A stretch of DNA of 64,000 nt, from positions 1 to 64,000 of the forward strand of contig PDSZ01000045.1 in assembly GCA_002748705.1 (NCBI GenBank). The letters are read 5' to 3'. The position numbers were made by a program, and so were the translations under genes. Shown here in pieces: positions 7,747 through 22,968 of the stretch. Below the pieces are notes generated by a model that was given only the letters and a program-made list of their open reading frames with translations, did no database searches and was not told the origin of the DNA. The number at the start of each line of letters is the position of its first letter. The first letter of the stretch is position 1. The DNA is from Candidatus Fermentibacterota bacterium. Its GTDB lineage: Bacteria; Fermentibacterota; Fermentibacteria; Fermentibacterales; Fermentibacteraceae.

Positions 7747-8667
7747 CTATCGCAGCAGAATATCCACCCTGTTTCCTGAAGAAATCAGCGCAGTCTCCAG
7801 ATCATCAGCAAGGGTAACGAAAGAATCGCTTCCATAACCTTTACCCCGCCACTTTATCTCACCGCTTGCAGAACACACCTCTATTCCGTTATCAGGAAGA
7901 ACTGCAAAAACAAAAGATAGAGTACTGTCAGCATAGGCGTAACATGGTGTGACAGGGAATGTGAACATTACGCTTATTCTGAGATCCTGCGGAGAACACA
8001 CAGCCACCTCGTTCCACCGCTCTGAAGAAAACAGCAGATTGTTCTCACCTGCTCCGGTCATGAACTGTAACAGCCCGTTGACTTTTTCAGAGCACTTCAA
8101 ATCCAGAGAAGGTACAGAGCGGCTTTCCATGCTTCCATCCTCTCCGCCGATACAGAGCCAGGAGCTGAAACCGCAGAATGCGCAAACTGAAGAAATATCA
8201 GTGGTCGCGGCTGCTGTTACAGAAAGGTCTGCATGGGAGAGGAGGCATATACTGCTGTCTGCCAAGTAAACAACCGGATTGTCACCGCAAGCGGTAAGAA
8301 AGAGAATATCAGAATTCATCTGCTCAAACATAACAATATCAGCTCCCTGAACAAGATATACAGTGTTGCCGCCTGCAACGAAAATGTTTTTCCCTCCACC
8401 GGGCGCAAGGCCTGTTACAGGCCCGTCAAAGCCGGTTCTGTGGTGAATTCGTCCGTGCCTAAGTTCCATGTGATAGAGGGTGTCGCCTGACGCGACAAGA
8501 CCATAGTTTCCTGCACCGGATAACACCGGAGGCACTGTGATTTCCAAAGGGAACTGCCTGGTAGCCTGTATGTAAGTGGGAAAACTCAGAACTTCCTCTG
8601 CTCCTGTCATGCACGATGACAGGAGCAGAGCAAAAGCTGCAAGACCGACTGCCGCCCTAGCGTACAA
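7747..8667 (-). CDS. Lipoprotein, probable beta-propeller
   Basis: A putative outer-surface or periplasmic lipoprotein of about 306 residues. The N terminus is a hydrophobic signal peptide ending in a lipobox LLSSC. The rest is built from short beta-strand repeats separated by Gly/Asp turns (for example VASGDTLYHMELRHG, VAGGNTVYLVQG, IGGEDGSMESRSV), typical of WD40 or PQQ-type propellers. No catalytic residues stand out. The frame is open to an ATG at 8715, but that lies 59 bases inside the preceding C25 peptidase gene. A TTG at 8667 that nearly abuts the peptidase stop gives a normal signal peptide and is preferred. It follows the T9SS-exported peptidase in the same direction and is probably co-transcribed. 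Function unknown. Confidence 0.7.
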   Translation of the reverse strand: MYARAAVGLAAFALLLSSCMTGAEEVLSFPTYIQATRQFPLEITVPPVLSGAGNYGLVASGDTLYHMELRHGRIHHRTGFDGPVTGLAPGGGKNIFVAGGNTVYLVQGADIVMFEQMNSDILFLTACGDNPVVYLADSSICLLSHADLSVTAAATTDISSVCAFCGFSSWLCIGGEDGSMESRSVPSLDLKCSEKVNGLLQFMTGAGENNLLFSSERWNEVAVCSPQDLRISVMFTFPVTPCYAYADSTLSFVFAVLPDNGIEVCSASGEIKWRGKGYGSDSFVTLADDLETALISSGNRVDILLR

Positions 8668-10909
8668 CTGCCATCTTTCTTGTGACAGAGCTGCCCTCTG
8701 CCTGCATCCGTACAAAGTAAATGCCCGGGAGCAGGCTGGAAGCGTCGATATTCAGCTGATTCACACCTGAAACAGCAGGCATGTCATGAATTGTTGAAAC
8801 GGTTCTTCCTGCAAGATCAACAAGTGAAATGTTCACATGTGATCCTTCAGGTGCGGTGAACTCAATTGCAGCTGAAGAACGCACCGGTGAAGGCCTCACC
8901 TGAGAGAGGTAGAAAGACGGTTCGGTTCCACCCTGAATTCCCTGGGAATTAACTTCTATCTCACCGTATACCGAAGAGTAGTTGTGAAGTCTGACACCAT
9001 AGAAAAGATTGCCTTCACCTGTTGCTGTGAAGTTCAGGGTTACGGTTCCAGCTGCTGATGTTGTTTCCTGAACATAGAAGGTTTCGTTGTATTCCGGGTG
9101 ATTGCCGATACCGTCGGTTATGGTTACCACGGCATTCTCCACAGGAACACCTTCTGAGGTTACTGTAAGGGTAAGGCTGTTGTCTCCTGAATTTACAGAA
9201 GCAGGAACATCAATTGAGATTTCGAAAGGAGCGCCTTCCAGATCACTGTTCGGTATGTCCATTGAAGGATCGCCGAACCAGTGGTACATCCTTGAGTTGT
9301 TCACACCGCCGCCTGGCATCTGCTGAATAATGTATGCCTGTGAAGCAGCAAACATTTCTCCGGCACAGGTGTTGCCTGTATCGAATAATTCCTTGAAAAG
9401 CTGCTTCTGAAAGAGGTTGTTTACTGTGGTAAGTGAAGGCGCGCTTGCGCCTAAAGTTCCGCTTGCTCCTACAGAAGGAGCATCCAGCCAGCTTTCGCAG
9501 AGGCAGTTATAAGGCTTGTCGTGGGTACCATTGCTGCATGCCACATTGAAAGCAGGGGGATAAAAGGTGTTTGTGCAGTCGTATATGGCACCTGCGTTCC
9601 ATCCAGGGCTCCACTGCCATGTGGTAATCGAACCGTGCCCCCGGTAGTTGACTATGCCTACACCATTATTGATAGCAGTCTGCACCTGTTCAGCTGTACC
9701 TCCCTCTGGAGGATAGCATGTTTCGAAGACCACATCTGCAAGGGCATAGTCATAGTTTGCCACTGCATTGGAGTTGGCTGTGTACTTATTCGGATAGTTT
9801 TCCTCATGTGCACAGAGAATCACACTTGCAGGCAGCGACGGGACTCCGGGCTCACCTGTGTATGACACATAGGACATTGCCTTTTCAGTCTGGTTCTCCA
9901 GCTGTGAAGAGTCTCCGGGAAAACGACCTACAGCTATATCAGGTATGTTGTCAGAAGTCATGCATTCGTAGTAGTAATCACCGTAAAAGTTGCCATAGTT
10001 TCTACCCTCTATCTGCTGATGTCTGGCTGGAATAAGTGCAAACCTTGTGACACCTGCCTGATAGAGACCGGTAATAACCGCCCTTACACTGGCGCTTGAT
10101 GCGCCCTCGTCAATTATGTTTATACTTACTCTGTGCCCCAGTGAATTAACCATGGCAAGAAAAGGGGTAATTGTGTCCAGGTTATCTTCAGGCACCAGAA
10201 CAATGTATACCACATCATCAGTGGAGACCGGTGAGTCATTCAAAGGAATGTTCAGCGACTCGTAATTAACTATTCCGGCACTGTGCATGGCAGCTATCTC
10301 AGGCCGAACAGAACACTGATACTCTCTGCTGCCTGTGAAATCCACTCTGGCGATCACCCTGGTTGCCACACTGAACCTGCCTGTCTCAGAATTCCAGCTC
10401 ACCGGATTCACCTGCAGAACCACTGTGTTCACCCCTGCCCATACGCCAGGCTCGTGAAGGGACACTGTCGAAGCAGGATAAACGCCGGCAGTGGAAGCGG
10501 AAAGCTCAACAAAATGAAAGGGCTCAACTGCAGAGTCGTACTGAAGCGGCTGTGTTGGATAGGCTCTGCCGGTGCAGACAAACTCTCTGTTTTCATCAGC
10601 CAGGGAGACCTCCGGTGTCATTCCCATTGGAACACCGAGAACAACTGAAATCACAGGAATCTCAGGCTGTCCAGGTAACTCACCTGTATTCCATCCTGCA
10701 CCTGGAATGTGGAATCTGGTGTAGCCTGCTGTTTCCTCAACAGAGTAACCTGAAAGGTCAATCTGAATCAGTGCATGTTCTCCGTCTGATTCAAGAACTG
10801 TTATTTCAGGCGGAGTACCGTACCTGCCTCCTGCTGAAACCCAGTTTCCAGGAACAGCCATTGTTCCCCAGCTTCCAAGTAGGGCCAAAAGAACGATATT
10901 AGTAATCAT
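8657..10909 (-). CDS. C25 family (gingipain-like) peptidase with T9SS sorting domain
   Basis: A secreted cysteine peptidase of 750 residues. After a signal peptide come a gingipain-type propeptide-like beta region and a caspase-fold C25 domain. The catalytic His lies in NYRGHGSITTW (about residue 425) and the catalytic Cys in NVACSNGTHD (about residue 456). An Ig-like region (about 560-660, FEISIDVPASVNSGDNSL) follows, and the last 80 residues form a type A sorting domain of the type IX secretion system (SPVRSSAAIEF, LVDLAGRTV, LLPGIYFVRM). T9SS cargo is moved across the outer membrane and released or attached to the surface. The ATG start follows a GGAGG ribosome binding site. Substrate specificity cannot be predicted. 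A second C25-like gene begins at 63427. Confidence 0.92.
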   Translation of the reverse strand: MITNIVLLALLGSWGTMAVPGNWVSAGGRYGTPPEITVLESDGEHALIQIDLSGYSVEETAGYTRFHIPGAGWNTGELPGQPEIPVISVVLGVPMGMTPEVSLADENREFVCTGRAYPTQPLQYDSAVEPFHFVELSASTAGVYPASTVSLHEPGVWAGVNTVVLQVNPVSWNSETGRFSVATRVIARVDFTGSREYQCSVRPEIAAMHSAGIVNYESLNIPLNDSPVSTDDVVYIVLVPEDNLDTITPFLAMVNSLGHRVSINIIDEGASSASVRAVITGLYQAGVTRFALIPARHQQIEGRNYGNFYGDYYYECMTSDNIPDIAVGRFPGDSSQLENQTEKAMSYVSYTGEPGVPSLPASVILCAHEENYPNKYTANSNAVANYDYALADVVFETCYPPEGGTAEQVQTAINNGVGIVNYRGHGSITTWQWSPGWNAGAIYDCTNTFYPPAFNVACSNGTHDKPYNCLCESWLDAPSVGASGTLGASAPSLTTVNNLFQKQLFKELFDTGNTCAGEMFAASQAYIIQQMPGGGVNNSRMYHWFGDPSMDIPNSDLEGAPFEISIDVPASVNSGDNSLTLTVTSEGVPVENAVVTITDGIGNHPEYNETFYVQETTSAAGTVTLNFTATGEGNLFYGVRLHNYSSVYGEIEVNSQGIQGGTEPSFYLSQVRPSPVRSSAAIEFTAPEGSHVNISLVDLAGRTVSTIHDMPAVSGVNQLNIDASSLLPGIYFVRMQAEGSSVTRKMAVVR

Positions 10910-15267: not shown

Positions 15268-16101
15268 ATGCCAGAAAGGTATCTTGGTACAAGAGTCGGT
15301 GTTTATGTTGATGTTTCCAATCTGACAATGAACGGCGGCTACGGTATGCGGTATGACATTTTGAGGGAGTTTGCATGCCGAAACGGCGCAAGGCCTGTAA
15401 GACTGAATGCTTATGTAAGCTATGACGAACAGCGAGCAAAAACAGACTACGATTACAGAGACGGTCAGAAAAGGTTCCATAGCGCCCTTCGCGATACAGG
15501 CTTCAAGGTAATCCGCAAGGTCATGAAATGGTACACAGACGATACAGGTGCCCGTTTCGGCAAAGCCAATGTTGATCTGGACATGGCAGTGGATGTTCTC
15601 ATGCAGTCAGATAAACTTGACAAGGTTCTGATAGCTTCAGGCGACGGCGACTTCACAAGGGTTGTGAGCACAGTTCAGAACAAAGGCTGCCGTGTTGAGG
15701 TAATAGGTTTTGATAATGTATCCAGAGAACTGAGAGACGAAGCAGACCTTTACATATCAGGTTTTCTTGTACCCAACCTCCTCCCCTTCAAAGGCCTTGA
15801 AGACTACTCAAAATGGGGCGATATGGGCTCATTCGTAAGAGGTGTATGCGTCAGCCACGAAAAGGGCTTCGGATTCCTTCGCTACATGAAGAAATTCTCC
15901 GGCGACCTGTGGAAGATAGACAACAGAGACCCTGAATCTCCCTACAGCAACATCTTCTTTCACGACTCAAACCTGCCGGGAAATGTGGACTATTTCAAGC
16001 TTCCCGACAGAGACCTTATTTTCGAGTTTGAGATTGCAGAAGGTACAGAGCCGGGAAAGACACAGGCAATCAACATTGGAGCACTCCGCGCCCTTACATA
16101 G
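15268..16101 (+). CDS. NYN (PIN-like) RNase domain fused to a cold-shock domain
   Basis: A 277-residue protein. Residues about 5-165 form a NYN/LabA-type nuclease domain: Asp in GVYVDVSNLTMNGGYG near the start, KANVDLDMAVDVL and IASGDGDFTRVV supply the acidic cluster typical of NYN metal sites. Residues about 190-275 form an OB-fold resembling a cold-shock domain, with GFGFLRY in place of the RNP1 motif and NIFFHDSNL in place of RNP2. The combination suggests an RNA-binding ribonuclease. The ATG start follows AGGAG at seven bases. It ends convergently with the DUF2249 gene across a hairpin. Target RNA is unknown. Confidence 0.84.
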   Translation: MPERYLGTRVGVYVDVSNLTMNGGYGMRYDILREFACRNGARPVRLNAYVSYDEQRAKTDYDYRDGQKRFHSALRDTGFKVIRKVMKWYTDDTGARFGKANVDLDMAVDVLMQSDKLDKVLIASGDGDFTRVVSTVQNKGCRVEVIGFDNVSRELRDEADLYISGFLVPNLLPFKGLEDYSKWGDMGSFVRGVCVSHEKGFGFLRYMKKFSGDLWKIDNRDPESPYSNIFFHDSNLPGNVDYFKLPDRDLIFEFEIAEGTEPGKTQAINIGALRALT

Positions 16102-17592: not shown

Positions 17593-17982
17593 TCTTATTT
17601 CTCCATTCATCACTGTTTTGCCGGCAATAACAGAAAAGCCTCAGCTCTTGCGGTGCTCCTCACCGGCATTCTCAAGAATTCACTTCAAAAATGCATACCC
17701 TGTTATAACACATATTGCAGGAATGTGCCTTTCTGCTCACTCACGCTGCAGACTGCTCTGCAAATATTCGAATCCGTAATTTGTTCATGAACTTCAGGTT
17801 GATATGGTTGGACCAGTCAAGGGGAGATTAACCTGTTCTTTGCCTTTTCCCTTCTTCATAGGATCAGTAGCCAGCGTCAGTTCATCGATGGTCTGATCAT
17901 GCTGATATCCGCGGGTTGGTTACCGCATTTCATCTGTTCGTCTGGGGTTGCCTCACTCTAGTACATCAATTCACCATAAGCA
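17593..17982. other. Intergenic region between cupin and IS630 gene, probable remnant sequence
   Basis: About 390 bases with no intact gene. On the minus strand a short reading frame ends at a TGA near 17800 and encodes RGYQHDQTIDELTLATDPMK, followed by a Lys/Gly-rich stretch, without an upstream start. It could be the 3-prime remnant of a gene cut by transposition. The downstream end of the IS630 element should lie within about 100 bases of 17983, but its terminal repeat could not be identified. Confidence 0.35.
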
Positions 17983-19119
17983 TTACATATGCTCCTGAGC
18001 AAAATCGAAATTCCTCCATCTGTGAACAACCGGTTCAGCGTTTGTCTCCCTTATACCCTGCAGAATACGCTCCTTCAGCTCTTCCTTTGAGTTAACCCGG
18101 ATATGTTTCAGAAAAGTCCTTGCTATTTTTGAGAAGTAGGTTTCTACCAGGTTCAGCCATGAACCATGTTTCGGGGTATGAACATATATGAACCGATTTG
18201 GTCGGCTTTGCAGATAAGCCATTGTCTCCTTTGATATGTGGGAAGAGTGATTGTCGAGGATAATCCTGATTGTGCAATCTGCGGGATAATACTCGTCAAG
18301 CTCTTTCAGGAGCATAACGAACTCCCTGCTCCTGTGCCTCTCATGTACTTGACCAAAGATATGTCCCGTATGAAGATCCAGGGCTGCAAGAAGCGACAGT
18401 GTACCAAACCGCTTGTATTCGTAGTCCCTTGCCGGTCTCGGATATGTACCCGCAATGGGTTGACGGTCTGGGGCAACATTGCCGATAGCCTGTATACCGG
18501 GTTTCTCATCAACAGAAACAGTAATGATCTTGTTGTCATCATCACTACTGTCATTGATCGCATTCACCTCTTTGTAAACGATGAGAACTTCCTCCATCTT
18601 CCTTTTGAAATCTGGATCCCTTCGTTCAAGGTAATAACGTATCTTGTGAGGCTGAACAGGATGGGACTTCAGTATTCTCTGGATTGTCGATTTAGCTGCC
18701 TGGTTAAGACACTTGTGTCCAGCTGCAGGAGCGTAAAGCTTCGTATGCTTTGCAAGCTGAGACAGCGACCAGGTTTCTGCTGCGTAACCGTGGTCCGTTG
18801 GCTTAGTGCAGGCAAGGTTAACAACCCAGGCTTTCGCAGCATCAGTTATGACAGGCGGATGTGCTCTATGATACTTGTCTTTCAGCCCTGTTTCGATTCC
18901 TGCAGCCAGAGCTTTATCAATACACTTGTAGATAGTAGGTCTGCTGGTATGCAACTCCTTGCTTATGGATGAGATCGGTTCACCCTCAGAATATCTTAGA
19001 AGAATCTGCGCTCGTTGTACCTCCCGGACTGGGGCAGTTCTGGACTGGCTTATCTTGAGCAACTTACCTCGCTGCTCTTCGGTAAGTCTCAAATCTGCTC
19101 TGTTGCTCTTTCGTGCCAT
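17983..19119 (-). CDS. IS630-family transposase
   Basis: A 378-residue Tc1/mariner-like DDE transposase that cuts and pastes the element into TA dinucleotides. The N-terminal part has a helix-turn-helix (ISSISKELHTSRPTIYKCIDKA). The catalytic core shows the first Asp in VSVDEKPGIQ, the second in IILDNHSSH and the final Glu in SWLNLVETYFSKI, all intact. The start is the ATG at 19119 with GAGGTG eight bases upstream; an upstream extension of 35 codons in the same frame reaches into the left part of the element and is not needed. It lies directly left of the integron-type cassette array and may have inserted into a former cassette. It appears complete and possibly active. Confidence 0.95.
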   Translation of the reverse strand: MARKSNRADLRLTEEQRGKLLKISQSRTAPVREVQRAQILLRYSEGEPISSISKELHTSRPTIYKCIDKALAAGIETGLKDKYHRAHPPVITDAAKAWVVNLACTKPTDHGYAAETWSLSQLAKHTKLYAPAAGHKCLNQAAKSTIQRILKSHPVQPHKIRYYLERRDPDFKRKMEEVLIVYKEVNAINDSSDDDNKIITVSVDEKPGIQAIGNVAPDRQPIAGTYPRPARDYEYKRFGTLSLLAALDLHTGHIFGQVHERHRSREFVMLLKELDEYYPADCTIRIILDNHSSHISKETMAYLQSRPNRFIYVHTPKHGSWLNLVETYFSKIARTFLKHIRVNSKEELKERILQGIRETNAEPVVHRWRNFDFAQEHM

Positions 19120-19230
19120 AGCAGTCACCTCCATTGAGTAAGATGAAGATAGTATACTTGGGCGACTGATATATGTAAAGATTTTAGCGAAACGATATAC
19201 TGGTATTCCGGACAAGTCATCCAAGCAAAT
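17983..19230 (-). mobile_element. IS630-family insertion sequence, ends unresolved
   Basis: The element is inferred from an intact DDE transposase gene. Terminal inverted repeats and the TA duplication were searched by eye on both sides and not convincingly found, so only the coding part and its upstream leader are bounded here. One weak match pairs a TTGGA-containing stretch near 17807 with one near 19210. Confidence 0.5.
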
Positions 19231-19331: not shown

Positions 19332-19414
19332 TCATAACCAACGCATGAACCAGATGTCTGTCAAGGAGTCGGGAAAAAGATTAACAGCGCTGCTGGTTAT
19401 GCGTATTGTTATGT
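19332..19414 (+). repeat. attC-like recombination site A
   Basis: An imperfect palindrome of 83 bases: the left arm, reading CATAACCAACGCATGAACCAG, and the right arm CTGGTTATGCGTATTGTTATG are nearly reverse complements, with single extra bases, as in folded bottom-strand integron attC sites. The outer core boxes are TCATAAC (19332-19338) and GTTATGT (19408-19414); crossover is expected after G19408. It shares the internal stretch ATGTCTGTCAAGGAGT with site C. The sequence to its left (19225-19331) would be the tail of an older cassette interrupted by the IS. Confidence 0.8.
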
Positions 19415-19449
19415 GCAAGAAAGTATATCCTAATGCAAAGGGGAAAGTA

Positions 19450-20265
19450 ATGAAAAAATTAGAAAAATTAAATTTCCCTAAAGATTTCATAGATAAATTT
19501 ATTTGTGGAAACGCTGTGGACATAATGAAGAAAATACCTGATGGTGCAGTTGACTTAGTAGTTACCTCACCACCATACAATCTAAAAAATTCAACAGGAA
19601 ACGGAATGAAAGACGGCAGAGGGGGAAAGTGGTCGAATGCAGCACTTATCGATGGATATTCCCATTATGATGATAATATGCCCCACGAAAAATATGTTGA
19701 ATGGCAGAGAGAATGTCTTTCCGAAATGCTCAGAATTATTCCAGATAATGGCGCTATTTTTTATAATCATAAATGGCGCGTTCAAGCTGGTTTGCTTCAA
19801 GATCGCCAAGATATTATCACAGGATTTCCTGTTAGGCAAATAATTATATGGAAGCGAAAAGGCGGCATAAACTTTAACCCTGGCTATTTTCTGCCAACTT
19901 ATGAAGTCATCTATCTGATAGCGAAATTAAAATTTAGATTATCCGATAAAGCAAATGCTCATGGTGATGTTTGGGAGTTTAGTCAAGAAAACAACAATAA
20001 ACATCCTGCGCCATTTCCAGAAATATTAATTGAAAGAATAATATCATCAACAAATGCAAATATTATTCTTGATCCCTTTATGGGGTCAGGAACTACAGCT
20101 GTTGTAGCAAAAAAATTGGATCGAAAATTTATAGGTATAGATATTTCTCCTGAATATTGTAAAATGGCAGAAAAGCGCCTTATTAACCCTAGTTCAATAG
20201 CAAAAAAAAATAATAAAACTCAAGCTAAACAACAATCATTATTTGATGTTGAGGAGAGTCAATGA
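19450..20265 (+). CDS. Site-specific DNA methyltransferase of a type II restriction-modification cassette
   Basis: A 271-residue adenine-N6 or cytosine-N4 methyltransferase; the motif order is that of the beta class. Motif IV TSPPYNLK is near the N terminus (about residue 40), and the SAM-binding motif I DPFMGSGTTAVVAKKL lies near the C terminus (about 215-230). The Ser-Pro-Pro-Tyr form is typical of N4-cytosine enzymes, which agrees with an MvaI/BcnI-type partner. It would protect host DNA against the nuclease encoded next. The ATG chosen follows GGGGAAAG; upstream codons in the frame lie inside attC site A and are not part of the gene. The stop overlaps the nuclease start as ATGA. The base composition is strikingly A+T rich compared with the chromosome. 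Recognition sequence unknown. Confidence 0.93.
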   Translation: MKKLEKLNFPKDFIDKFICGNAVDIMKKIPDGAVDLVVTSPPYNLKNSTGNGMKDGRGGKWSNAALIDGYSHYDDNMPHEKYVEWQRECLSEMLRIIPDNGAIFYNHKWRVQAGLLQDRQDIITGFPVRQIIIWKRKGGINFNPGYFLPTYEVIYLIAKLKFRLSDKANAHGDVWEFSQENNNKHPAPFPEILIERIISSTNANIILDPFMGSGTTAVVAKKLDRKFIGIDISPEYCKMAEKRLINPSSIAKKNNKTQAKQQSLFDVEESQ

Positions 20266-21035
20266 AAACATATACTAAAGAGAGCTTAATCGAGGCACTT
20301 AAAGATATTCGAGTACAAGGTTGGATTCCAACTGGAAGAAAAAATAATGATGGAGGTGTTGGCAACACTTTAGAGGACCTATTAAAGATTAAAGAAAATA
20401 ATTTACCTATACCCAATGCCTCGGAATGGGAACTTAAAGCCCAGAAAAAAAATACTAACTCATTGATCACCTTATTTCACATGGAGCCATCTCCTCGTGC
20501 TTTCAAATTTGTTCCCTCTATTCTTTTACCTGAATTTGGCTGGAAGCACAAAAAAGCGGGCAACCAGTATTCAAATGAGGAAAAAAGTTTTCGACAAACA
20601 ATAAATGCATTGAAATATAGCAGTAGAGGATTTATTGTCAGAGTAGATAGCAATAATAGAAAAATCTTTGTTGATTTTGATCCGAGCAAAATTAAAAATG
20701 ATAATCATCCTGAGTGGAAACGAGCAGTCGCACATAAAATATTAGATCCCAAACCGTATTGGGGTTTTGATGATTTGTATCATAAAGCAGGAACAAAATT
20801 ACATAACTGCTTTTTCGTATGGGCTGAGTCGAAAAGAATAAATAAAATTCTTCATTTTCATTATCAAGATATATTCATGCTAAAGAGATTAGATCTGAAT
20901 AAATTTATTGATGCTATAAAATTAGGGAATATTTATATCGACTTTGATGCTAGAACTGGACACAATCACGGGACAAAATTTCGACTAGAAAAAAAAGTCT
21001 TAATTGATTTATATGCAGAGGTTAAGAAATATTAA
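20262..21035 (+). CDS. Type II restriction endonuclease, MvaI/BcnI-like
   Basis: A 257-residue nuclease expected to cut unmethylated DNA at the site protected by the preceding methyltransferase. The N-terminal region GGVGNTLEDLLKIKENN followed by ASEWELKAQKK resembles the MvaI/BcnI family, in which an Asp plus Glu-x-Lys (here in the EDLL and WELK segments) form the metal-dependent PD-(D/E)xK-like active site. Members recognise CCWGG or CCSGG and cut as monomers that nick each strand in turn; whether this one shares that specificity cannot be told. It is translated from an ATGA overlap with the methyltransferase. Its stop lies seven bases before attC site B, the compact spacing typical of cassettes. 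Confidence 0.85.
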   Translation: MKTYTKESLIEALKDIRVQGWIPTGRKNNDGGVGNTLEDLLKIKENNLPIPNASEWELKAQKKNTNSLITLFHMEPSPRAFKFVPSILLPEFGWKHKKAGNQYSNEEKSFRQTINALKYSSRGFIVRVDSNNRKIFVDFDPSKIKNDNHPEWKRAVAHKILDPKPYWGFDDLYHKAGTKLHNCFFVWAESKRINKILHFHYQDIFMLKRLDLNKFIDAIKLGNIYIDFDARTGHNHGTKFRLEKKVLIDLYAEVKKY

Positions 21036-21041
21036 AAAATT

Positions 21042-21098
21042 ACATAACAAGTCGTTTCACCGAACTCGTTCTATTCGCCGGTGAACTCAGCGTTATCC
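21042..21098 (+). repeat. attC-like recombination site B
   Basis: The most canonical of the four sites, 57 bases. It begins ACATAACAAGTCGTTTCACC and ends GGTGAACTCAGCGTTATCC. This matches the widespread attC pattern TAACAA-TCG ... AACTCAGCGTTA, with L and R boxes and a short loop (TCTATTC region) at the tip. The left core ACATAAC complements the start junction GTTATGT of its own cassette exactly. Crossover is expected after G21092. Confidence 0.9.
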
Positions 21099-21113
21099 GG
21101 AAAGGAAAAGGTA

Positions 21114-21887
21114 TTGATCTCAAACCCATGGAGAAATAAGAAATTCGCATCTGAAAGCCTGGATGCCATTGACCTGAAATTTCTACCAGGGACTGAGCAA
21201 GAGGTTGATTTCATTATCAAAGAACTTGGGTCAGCTATCGGCTCAGCAATACTTGATATTGGTTGCGGTGCAGGGCGTCACGCAATCGGGTTAGCAAAAT
21301 CAGGATATGTGGTTACAGGTATTGATGTCTCTCCAACGATGCTTGCAGAGGCTGAGATAAGAGCAAAACAGAGCGATGTTAAGCTAACCCTTCTTGAAGG
21401 CGACATTCTGAAACTATCTGACTTCCTGCAAGGTCAAGCTGATACATTCAATGGAGCAATTTGCATCTGCGAATCTGGACTTGGATCTCTGGGTTGGGAA
21501 AAGGATCTATCTGTATTAAGGGTGATTCATAATTGCTTGAGCGGTGGAGCCAGGTTGATTCTTACCACATTCAATGGGGTTAAGAAATACAGAGGAGAAA
21601 GAATCAAGGCGAAGAGTTTTGATTTCCTGAACGGTCTGGTTCATTGGCAGTTACCGGATGACTGGGGCAGTACCGGAGAAAAACTTGAAGAATTCCAAAG
21701 AGTCTACATTCCATCTGAAATGATAATGCTGTGCGAAATGGCCGGCTTCATTGATATTGAGATTTTTGGATGCAAGCCCGGCGAATTCAAAAGGCAACCA
21801 CTTGAACCTGATGATACAGAGATGATGATTGTGTGTAAGAAATCAGCGGATAATCACAGCATGAACCGGATGTCTGTCAAGGAGTAA
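21114..21887 (+). CDS. Class I SAM-dependent methyltransferase (cassette-borne)
   Basis: About 257 residues with a Rossmann-fold methyltransferase domain: motif I ILDIGCGAGRHAIGLAKSG, the acidic ribose-binding GIDVSPTMLAEA and motif II GDILKLSDF. A C-terminal extension has YIPSEMIMLCEMAGF, common in small-molecule methyltransferases. The substrate is unknown; the family includes ubiquinone/menaquinone-type and antibiotic-modifying enzymes. The frame is open upstream to a GTG inside attC site B, but that belongs to the previous cassette; the first start within this cassette is the TTG at 21114, preceded by AAAGGA. The final residues (HSMNRMSVKE and stop) are encoded by attC site C itself. Confidence 0.85.
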   Translation: MISNPWRNKKFASESLDAIDLKFLPGTEQEVDFIIKELGSAIGSAILDIGCGAGRHAIGLAKSGYVVTGIDVSPTMLAEAEIRAKQSDVKLTLLEGDILKLSDFLQGQADTFNGAICICESGLGSLGWEKDLSVLRVIHNCLSGGARLILTTFNGVKKYRGERIKAKSFDFLNGLVHWQLPDDWGSTGEKLEEFQRVYIPSEMIMLCEMAGFIDIEIFGCKPGEFKRQPLEPDDTEMMIVCKKSADNHSMNRMSVKE

Positions 21888-21924
21888 GTTATTTTTACAG
21901 CTGTGGTTATGCGTATTGTTAGAG
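21848..21924 (+). repeat. attC-like recombination site C
   Basis: 77 bases, the same subfamily as site A: the central block GCATGAACCGGATGTCTGTC and right arm TGTGGTTATGCGTATTGTTA are shared with small changes. The left core is GGATAAT (six of seven to the complement of GTTATCC) and the right core GTTAGAG (21918-21924). It overlaps the end of the methyltransferase reading frame, whose stop TAA is inside the site. Confidence 0.85.
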
Positions 21925-21933
21925 AGGGGAGAC

Positions 21934-22881
21934 ATGAAGAACCAGCTAAAAGTGCCTCTTGCATTTAACTCAGATCGAGTAATTGTAAAACCGGCTGATG
22001 CCAGCAAAGATGAAACCTATTACTGCCCTGGCTGTGGTGATGTGTTAGTCCTTAGAAAAGGGACAAAGAAAATTCCACATTTTGCTCACAAAGCATCAGA
22101 CAGTTGTTCCAACGAAACGATTATTCATTCACTTGCTAAGAAAAGCATCGCTGAGGTGGTTGACCAATTCATCCGCAATAAGAGTGCTTCCCCCATAGTT
22201 AAACGGAGGTGTTCAGTTTGCGGTGATCTACATGAGCAGAAATTGCCGCAGACTGTTTCAGCTGTTTCCGTAGAGAGAAAACTAAACACAGGATTCATTG
22301 CTGATGTTGCGCTCTCAAGTAATGATGAGGTTCTTGCGGTTATTGAAGTTCTTGTAACACATGAAGTATCAAAGAATAAAGCTAAGTTGATAGGCATTCC
22401 TTTCATTGAAGTATCAGGAGAAGAGATTCTTAAGGATCCAATGAACTGGTATCCGCTCAAGGACTACTTCAAGCCGTTCTCTTGCACTAGATGTGAGTCG
22501 GCAAAGCGAGAGTTCTGGCATAAGCTTCAGGAAGTATCAAACTCAACAGGTATTACTCTACCAAGAGAGTATTACAGAACAACAACATATCGTTGTTGGA
22601 AATGCAAAAAGGAAATCCTGGTTTTTGATTGGCCTGGTAATCGAGATCGTAACGCAACGCCAAATGAACCAAGACCAAAATCCATACAGTATCGTTATTC
22701 GAGCACAGTGAAGCATAAATATTGGGCTAACACATGTCCGTATTGCCGTCAAATACAGGGTAACTTTTTCATGTTTAGCGAGCCAGATAGTAACTTTTTT
22801 GGATTCCAATCCGGCGAAGATACTGTTGAGGACTATCAGCATGATATGTTGGTTCTTGCGGTACGACATGATACATTCTGA
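21934..22881 (+). CDS. CoiA-like zinc-finger / nuclease-fold protein (cassette-borne)
   Basis: A 315-residue protein of unknown function. Residues about 28-55 form a CoiA-type zinc-binding N terminus (YYCPGCGDVLVLRKGTKK, then IPHFAHK). The middle has a PD-(D/E)xK-like pattern: Asp in GFIADVALSS and Glu in AVIEVLVTHEVS, followed by Lys, as in the CoiA nuclease domain. The last third adds Cys-x2-Cys pairs (FSCTRC, YRCWKCKK, NTCPYCRQ) that look like zinc ribbons. The start is the ATG eight bases after GAGAGGGG; an in-frame TTG six codons earlier lies within attC site C. Known CoiA acts in competence, and related zinc/nuclease proteins occur in mobile elements and defence islands, so a role in handling incoming DNA is plausible but unproven. 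Confidence 0.75.
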   Translation: MKNQLKVPLAFNSDRVIVKPADASKDETYYCPGCGDVLVLRKGTKKIPHFAHKASDSCSNETIIHSLAKKSIAEVVDQFIRNKSASPIVKRRCSVCGDLHEQKLPQTVSAVSVERKLNTGFIADVALSSNDEVLAVIEVLVTHEVSKNKAKLIGIPFIEVSGEEILKDPMNWYPLKDYFKPFSCTRCESAKREFWHKLQEVSNSTGITLPREYYRTTTYRCWKCKKEILVFDWPGNRDRNATPNEPRPKSIQYRYSSTVKHKYWANTCPYCRQIQGNFFMFSEPDSNFFGFQSGEDTVEDYQHDMLVLAVRHDTF

Positions 22882-22892
22882 AAAGAATGTAT

Positions 22893-22968
22893 CTCTAACT
22901 GCATAAACCAAAAGCCTGTAGGGGAACCGGACAGAGGTTAACTGATGTGGTTACGCAGATTGCTGGAG
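22893..22968 (+). repeat. attC-like recombination site D (degenerate)
   Basis: 76 bases. The left core CTCTAAC exactly complements the start junction GTTAGAG of its own cassette. The left arm TGCATAAACCA and right arm TGTGGTTACGCAGATT pair imperfectly, as in sites A and C. The right core is GCTGGAG, changed at the second base of GTT, so it may be inactive. It is the last site seen; no further attC was recognised downstream. Confidence 0.72.

Follow-up and report, generated by a model that had tools for sequence, protein, structure and literature searches.

The window, a 64,000-nucleotide stretch of contig PDSZ01000045.1 from a Candidatus Fermentibacterota bacterium, contained an integron-type gene cassette array on the + strand. 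The array was composed of three cassettes framed by four attC-like palindromic sites, named A to D (Table 1). Cassette 1 carried a putative restriction–modification pair, cassette 2 a putative methyltransferase, and cassette 3 a CoiA-like protein. The array opened with an attC site (site A), and an IS630-family transposase gene was located to its left. We regard the locus, with high confidence, as a cluster of attC sites lacking an integron integrase (CALIN), situated in the chromosome of its host and derived from an integron lineage found across the phylum.

An attC site contains two cores, RYYYAAC (R'') and GTTRRRY (R'), together with an inner stem and an extrahelical base. The four sites of the window agreed with this pattern in part. 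The AAC and GTT triplets were retained in sites A and B, while AAT was found in site C and GCT in site D; the core was thus damaged in two of the four sites, and the outer core letters partly deviated. An inner stem with one unpaired base was present in sites A, C, and D. Site C was 82% identical to site A over a 45-base stretch, and site A shared 76–78% DNA identity over 75–77 aligned positions with three attC sites from the array carried by Candidatus Sabulitectum silens, the nearest relative of the host. Sites A, C, and D could be aligned with sites from S. silens and from arrays headed by intI across the stem, the unpaired base, and part of the loop. The short type seen in site B also occurred inside arrays of the relatives, mixed with long sites, and a Proteobacterial origin of site B was therefore an unnecessary assumption. 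Site B had no match among plasmids, so nothing pointed to a plasmid as its recent source.

Two covariance models were built from sites of relatives, and neither included a site of the window. Model R1 was derived from 23 aligned sites, taken around the intI genes of the phylum (20 stretches) and picked by an attC-like site scan. Model R2 was derived from another 33 sites, which came from six genomes including that of S. silens. As the R1 sites were picked by a scan that required pairing, the count of covarying pairs leans towards structure. Among the R1 matches in relatives, 8 of 31 in one set and all 33 in the source set of R2 lay outside the R1 training sites. When R1 was run on the whole window with filters off, the scores were 42.2 bits for site A (E 2.5e-7), 24.7 for B (E 0.0025), 20.5 for C (E 0.023), and 12.0 for D (E 2), the E-values of both models being rough by the tool's own statement. 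The best place outside the sites scored 11.9 bits, and the opposite strand of site A scored 15.0. R2 gave 50.9 bits for site A (E 3.1e-11), 23.1 for D (E 0.0013), 21.6 for C (E 0.0032), and 18.3 for B (E 0.026), and ranked all four sites above everything else in the 64 kb, with the next best place at 10.0 bits. In a plain scan for R''/R' cores and inner stem, which by its own rules is blind to sites B, C, and D, site A was the best place in the window (16.5, against 14.5 for the best of six shuffles). Two unrelated palindromes in the window scored 16 and 15 in the pairing scan, so pairing alone is no proof of attC. In single-strand folding only site A stood out, with z values of −2.65 and −3.41 on its two strands; folding alone was likewise rejected as proof, since no other site beat its shuffles.

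In the circular form of an integron cassette, the R'' of its attC was linked to the start of the same cassette, and the two sequences are expected to be complementary. The R'' of cassette 1, ACATAAC, was exactly reverse-complementary to its start GTTATGT (7 of 7 positions), as was the R'' of cassette 3, CTCTAAC, to GTTAGAG (7 of 7). The R'' of cassette 2, GGATAAT, matched its start GTTATCC at 6 of 7 positions. This own-cassette complementarity exceeded the pairing within sites B, C, and D, which was 5, 3, and 5, respectively. In the arrays of relatives, 34 of 45 cassettes had an R'' exactly complementary to their own start, and 40 of 45 matched at six or more of the seven positions; the remaining five had 5, 5, 5, 3, and 2 matching positions. 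Two matches cut by a contig end (one of 31 and one of 33) were omitted, and neighbours at least 4 kb apart were left unpaired. When the real R'' and R' cores of the relatives were paired at random, all seven positions matched in 3.0% and at least six in 15.2% of pairs. The 7-6-7 trio would thus arise about once in 7000 by chance (our product), with core conservation allowed for. An earlier note on this DNA had proposed four attC sites and three cassettes, and had considered these three pairs of cores a strong internal test. The places of the sites were confirmed (A, B, and C by R1, all four by R2), the complementarity of 7, 6, and 7 positions was reproduced, and the test was indeed discriminating against random pairing.

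Table 1. Predicted features of the cassette array and its left border, with positions in the window.
Feature	Position	Strand	Remarks
IS630-family transposase	17983..19143	-	left of array; NF033545 8.1e-67
attC site A	19332..19414	+	R'' TCATAAC, R' GTTATGT
Cassette 1	19409..21092	+	TT of site A R' to G of site B R'
Type II DNA methyltransferase, N6/N4 family	19450..20265	+	PF01555 2e-44; PADLOC MTase_II 5e-123
MvaI/BcnI-family type II restriction endonuclease	20262..21035	+	PF15515 3.1e-61
attC site B, short type, 57 bp	21042..21098	+	R'' ACATAAC, R' GTTATCC
Class I S-adenosylmethionine-dependent methyltransferase	21081..21887	+	PF13649 2.3e-14
Cassette 2	21093..21918	+	own-core match 6/7
attC site C	21848..21924	+	R'' GGATAAT, R' GTTAGAG; overlaps end of cassette 2 open reading frame
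Cassette 3	21919..22962	+	own-core match 7/7
CoiA-like protein, CoiA N-terminal domain	21934..22881	+	PF25164 1.4e-14
attC site D, degenerate	22893..22968	+	R'' CTCTAAC, R' GCTGGAG in place of GTT-

Related sites and integrases were found throughout the phylum, which was surveyed in 42 draft genomes. R1 matches at E ≤0.01 were present in 36 of the 42 genomes, with up to 44 per genome. At least two R1 matches were found in 32 genomes, and 16 genomes had matches without an integron integrase (IntI) above cut-off (our count, in drafts). In other organisms, R1 gave a single match of 41.2 bits in one of 17 genomes; this control covered 17 of 18 loci, as L003 was omitted by us. The NCBI integron integrase model TIGR02249 was matched above its curated cut-off in 21 of the 42 genomes and in 0 of 14 control genomes, whereas weak tyrosine-recombinase matches occurred in 42 of 42 and 4 of 14, respectively. 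The IntI of S. silens scored 302.9 bits with this model, and ten phylum IntI translations carried what we take to be the IntI-specific insert. Among 21 intI-bearing stretches, attC matches were present in 10, and 34 of their 36 sites were located on the 5' side of intI, which is the classic layout. The 5' end of intI was less than 700 bases from a contig edge in 10 of the 21 stretches, and the arrays of the relatives are therefore under-counted. In S. silens, 13 attC matches were located at a contig end (L158, G001:C12), and IntI was encoded on another contig, 461 bases from its edge. Loci L095 (G030:C113) and L096 (G033:C126) encoded IntI of a separate lineage (474 and 476 bits), one of the two copies containing a stop, and their attC sites were on the 3' side of intI, opposite to the layout elsewhere.

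In an IntI tree of 37 rows chosen by us (17 of 18 translated IntI, 19 of 120 listed proteins, and a single Xer-like outgroup whose branch was very long), 22 rows formed one clade with a support of 100/100, including proteins of Candidatus Sabulitectum, Aegiribacteria, and Fermentibacteria. For these three groups, proteins named integron integrase exist in public records among the best 120 of 7586 matches. One IntI each of genomes G013, G017, and G025, and that of G033 on contig C126, were outside the main clade, which suggests that the phylum acquired intI more than once. Among the 120 listed proteins, the closest IntI with a named source beyond the phylum was P0093 of an archaeal bin, Candidatus Hadarchaeum (49%), which is a lead for cross-domain exchange.

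The cassettes differed in the kind of gene that they carried. Cassette 1 had a GC content of 33.7%, compared with 49% in the flanking blocks. The start of the endonuclease gene overlapped the stop of the methyltransferase gene (ATGA), and both domains were full length (PF15515, 1–227 of 227; PF01555, 1–221 of 221). The best solved relative of the methyltransferase was a cytosine-N4 methyltransferase (8s9n, 8.2e-39), and the endonuclease matched R.MvaI (1.5e-16) and R.BcnI (6.1e-9). In the alignment with MvaI, a Glu and the ExK motif were kept, and the aspartate between them aligned with Asn, these being the residues that we take to be catalytic in MvaI. Judged from its sequence, cassette 1 is a type II restriction–modification system of the MvaI/BcnI family. 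The best 120 of 6828 endonuclease homologues were 61–82% identical (self excluded), and the few named hosts among them were Proteobacteria, Bacteroidales, Anaerolineales, a cyanobacterium, and others. No homologue was found in the 25 phylum genomes searched (of 42), a search that had no positive control. This distribution fits a travelling module.

The GTG start listed for the cassette 2 methyltransferase falls inside site B, and translation more probably begins at position 21114, with an in-frame TTG preceded by GGAAAGGAAAAGG. Distant relatives of this protein (27% and 29%) were found in two phylum stretches, L098 and L117, and the L098 relative was located between two attC sites. Its PADLOC match, mad2 (7e-18), probably rests on the common methyltransferase fold. 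For the CoiA-like protein of cassette 3, 106 proteins including itself were found; the best other was 86% identical, and the named relatives belonged to several phyla. Cassette 3 had no PADLOC match. The defence-type genes announced by the earlier note were thus confined: on sequence grounds, cassette 1 is the only defence cassette of the three.

The window was a piece of chromosome, with mutS, enolase, dnaK, metK, and metG among its genes and a single tRNA; Rfam at the gathering threshold gave nothing beyond a tRNA in the window. Two of the cassette proteins were listed in the protein database on contigs of up to 112,263 bases. The MetG of the window was 77% identical over its full length to that of S. 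silens, which belongs to Candidatus Fermentibacterota in the Fibrobacterota–Chlorobiota–Bacteroidota (FCB) group, while the other 18 scanned loci reached at most 54%. The relatives were reached through this comparison, by which the host is assigned to Candidatus Fermentibacterota with S. silens as the nearest relative; the earlier note had rightly expected a candidate-phylum FCB host. A protein encoded at 8657–10909 showed a partial-length resemblance to the type IX secretion sortase PorU that stayed under the curated cut-off.

The array was located between two blocks of host genes that are not neighbours in relatives. The right block, from 23686 on, was conserved in relatives, and in 8 of 10 of their stretches it was preceded by one or both genes of a conserved pair that were missing in the window. 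The left block was also conserved, and its last gene (15268–16101) was present in 8 of 10 genomes searched. In relatives, however, the left block was placed elsewhere and not beside the right block. The segment 16102–23685 bridged the two blocks and contained a DUF2249 gene, the IS630 element, and the cassettes (profile search for DUF2249 and IS630), as well as a cupin-like gene and an IS110-type end by our own reading. It appeared as a rearrangement point filled with accessory genes, joining host blocks that are separate in relatives. No attC match was found in the stretches of relatives examined around either block; on one contig of G029, an array was located about 216 kb away from the left block. 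The IS630 element had weak end repeats (17960–17990 and 19171–19201, 74% over 31 nt) and abutted a dispersed repeat of about 165 bases (17798–17964), which was solitary in the window and 78–87% identical to seven aligned copies in relatives, where more copies are listed. An open reading frame beside three of these seven copies presumably encodes an IS110 transposase.

Several observations weigh against reading the locus as a remnant of an integron. When ten phylum IntI were compared with the 64-kb window by tblastn, nothing better than E 0.2 was obtained, and no intI was found beside the array within the window; the earlier note's description of an array without an integrase thus held for the window, whereas relatives do have IntI. 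No attI was found beside the array, although no search aimed at attI was made. In R1, site D scored no better than the background. Sites B, C, and D folded no better than shuffled sequences (z −1.31 to +0.28), and the exact attC pattern of sites A and C was found in 0 viral contigs and in 0 of the genome contigs searched. The palindromes might be ordinary repeats, such as repetitive extragenic palindromic elements, terminators, or miniature-transposon ends; two unrelated palindromes of the window nearly equalled site A in plain pairing, and an IS630 element was next door. This explanation is contradicted by the cassette-specific cores, the model scores, the unpaired base, and the homologous sites linked to intI, and was rejected as highly improbable. 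A CALIN remains the preferred reading. Site A would then be the attC of a preceding cassette, lost or truncated, rather than an attI, and the GCT of site D is either a mutated core or the border of a target.

In the proposed mechanism, the cassettes would have been inserted one after another by an IntI that bound the bottom strand of each attC in its folded form and cut R' at G/TT. The gene for this IntI would have stood next to the array at one time, or in a related integron within the same cell. The segment may then have parted from intI through rearrangement, deletion, or the activity of insertion sequences (IS); the left border of the array carries an IS630 element and an IS110-type end. 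Both rearrangement away from intI and off-target insertion are among the routes to CALINs listed in the available text of a 2021 review (PMC8618304). There is about an even chance that rearrangement broke up a larger integron, of which the array is one part, and that intI is located at another place in this chromosome. The S. silens array at a contig end with IntI on a different contig (G001), the IntI with arrays in other relatives, and the location of the array at a synteny break all agree with a split. It is rather unlikely that the array is instead an off-target product, in which an IntI encoded elsewhere in the genome placed the cassettes at a secondary chromosomal site that never had intI. 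No intI remnant was found in the window and no attC match near either host block in the stretches of relatives examined, as would be expected of such a product, and the last site ends G|CTGGAG, possibly a target sequence rather than a mutated core. However, site A is a complete attC, which implies that a cassette once stood further left; the flanking blocks are not neighbours in relatives, so that a plain single-site insertion leaves the locus unexplained; and the GCT of site D differs from the secondary-site motif, which is GWT. Rearrangement is favoured as the cause of the separation from intI, since the array is located where synteny is broken and mobile elements are present. With IntI supplied in trans, cassettes 1 and 2 are predicted to be still excisable, and cassette 3 less so because R' of site D is changed. 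As a type II restriction–modification module, cassette 1 would protect against foreign DNA and would promote its own maintenance through the addiction that such modules usually cause.

Proteobacteria account for most of what is known about integrons, alongside a list of further phyla. Fermentibacterota is absent from the list of integron phyla in the available text of the 2021 review (PMC8618304). No description of integrons of Fermentibacter, Fermentibacterota, Aegiribacteria, or Hyd24-12 was found in the open-access literature, a search without preprints and most subscription papers; a paper on wastewater resistance names the group once and has nothing on its integrons. The extended host range suggested by the earlier note agrees with this absence from the literature, but public records already name integron integrases of the phylum. 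The locus itself is a CALIN of known kind, and the phylum-wide spread is the more interesting part. With IntI in 21 and attC matches in 36 of the 42 genomes, this uncultured phylum is likely a large source of cassettes. We lean slightly towards an old resident chromosomal integron in Fermentibacterota, which would have its own IntI clade and attC families, and cassettes scattered as CALINs that IntI could still mobilise in trans. If so, these uncultured bacteria would harbour a reservoir, so far unreported, of cassettes for defence and other functions. According to work reported in 2025, integron cassettes can reportedly carry phage defence. The locus offers a concrete case of a complete restriction–modification system carried as one cassette, and makes it testable whether integrase-less clusters stay mobile.

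When the locus was compared with known systems, it matched CALINs in the IntegronFinder usage, that is, at least two attC sites within 4 kb with accessory genes between them and no IntI beside them. The available text of two papers defines CALINs by a minimum of two attC sites (PMC9024848) and a spacing below 4 kb (PMC9668308), and CALINs are common and more widespread than intI-bearing integrons in the parts available of these papers and of PMC8618304. The distances between the sites of the window were 1.6, 0.75, and 0.97 kb, with sites A, B, and C found by both models and D by R2 only; tblastn found no adjacent integrase, and the window lacked the intI of a complete integron. The present CALIN differs in having a degenerate last site and a host phylum outside the list in the available text of the 2021 review (PMC8618304). 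The array resembled the chromosomal integrons of Fermentibacterota (G014:C169, G010:C72, G029:C19) in its attC types, the core rule, and the mixture of long and short sites, whereas IntI heads the array in those integrons. It was also similar to the S. silens array (L158), three sites of which are 76–78% identical to site A, although no cassette protein of the window was matched in the 16 kb examined. As in MvaI/BcnI restriction–modification systems, the methyltransferase and endonuclease genes of cassette 1 were adjacent, and both were full length by profile; unlike in those systems, the two genes were contained within one attC-bounded cassette.

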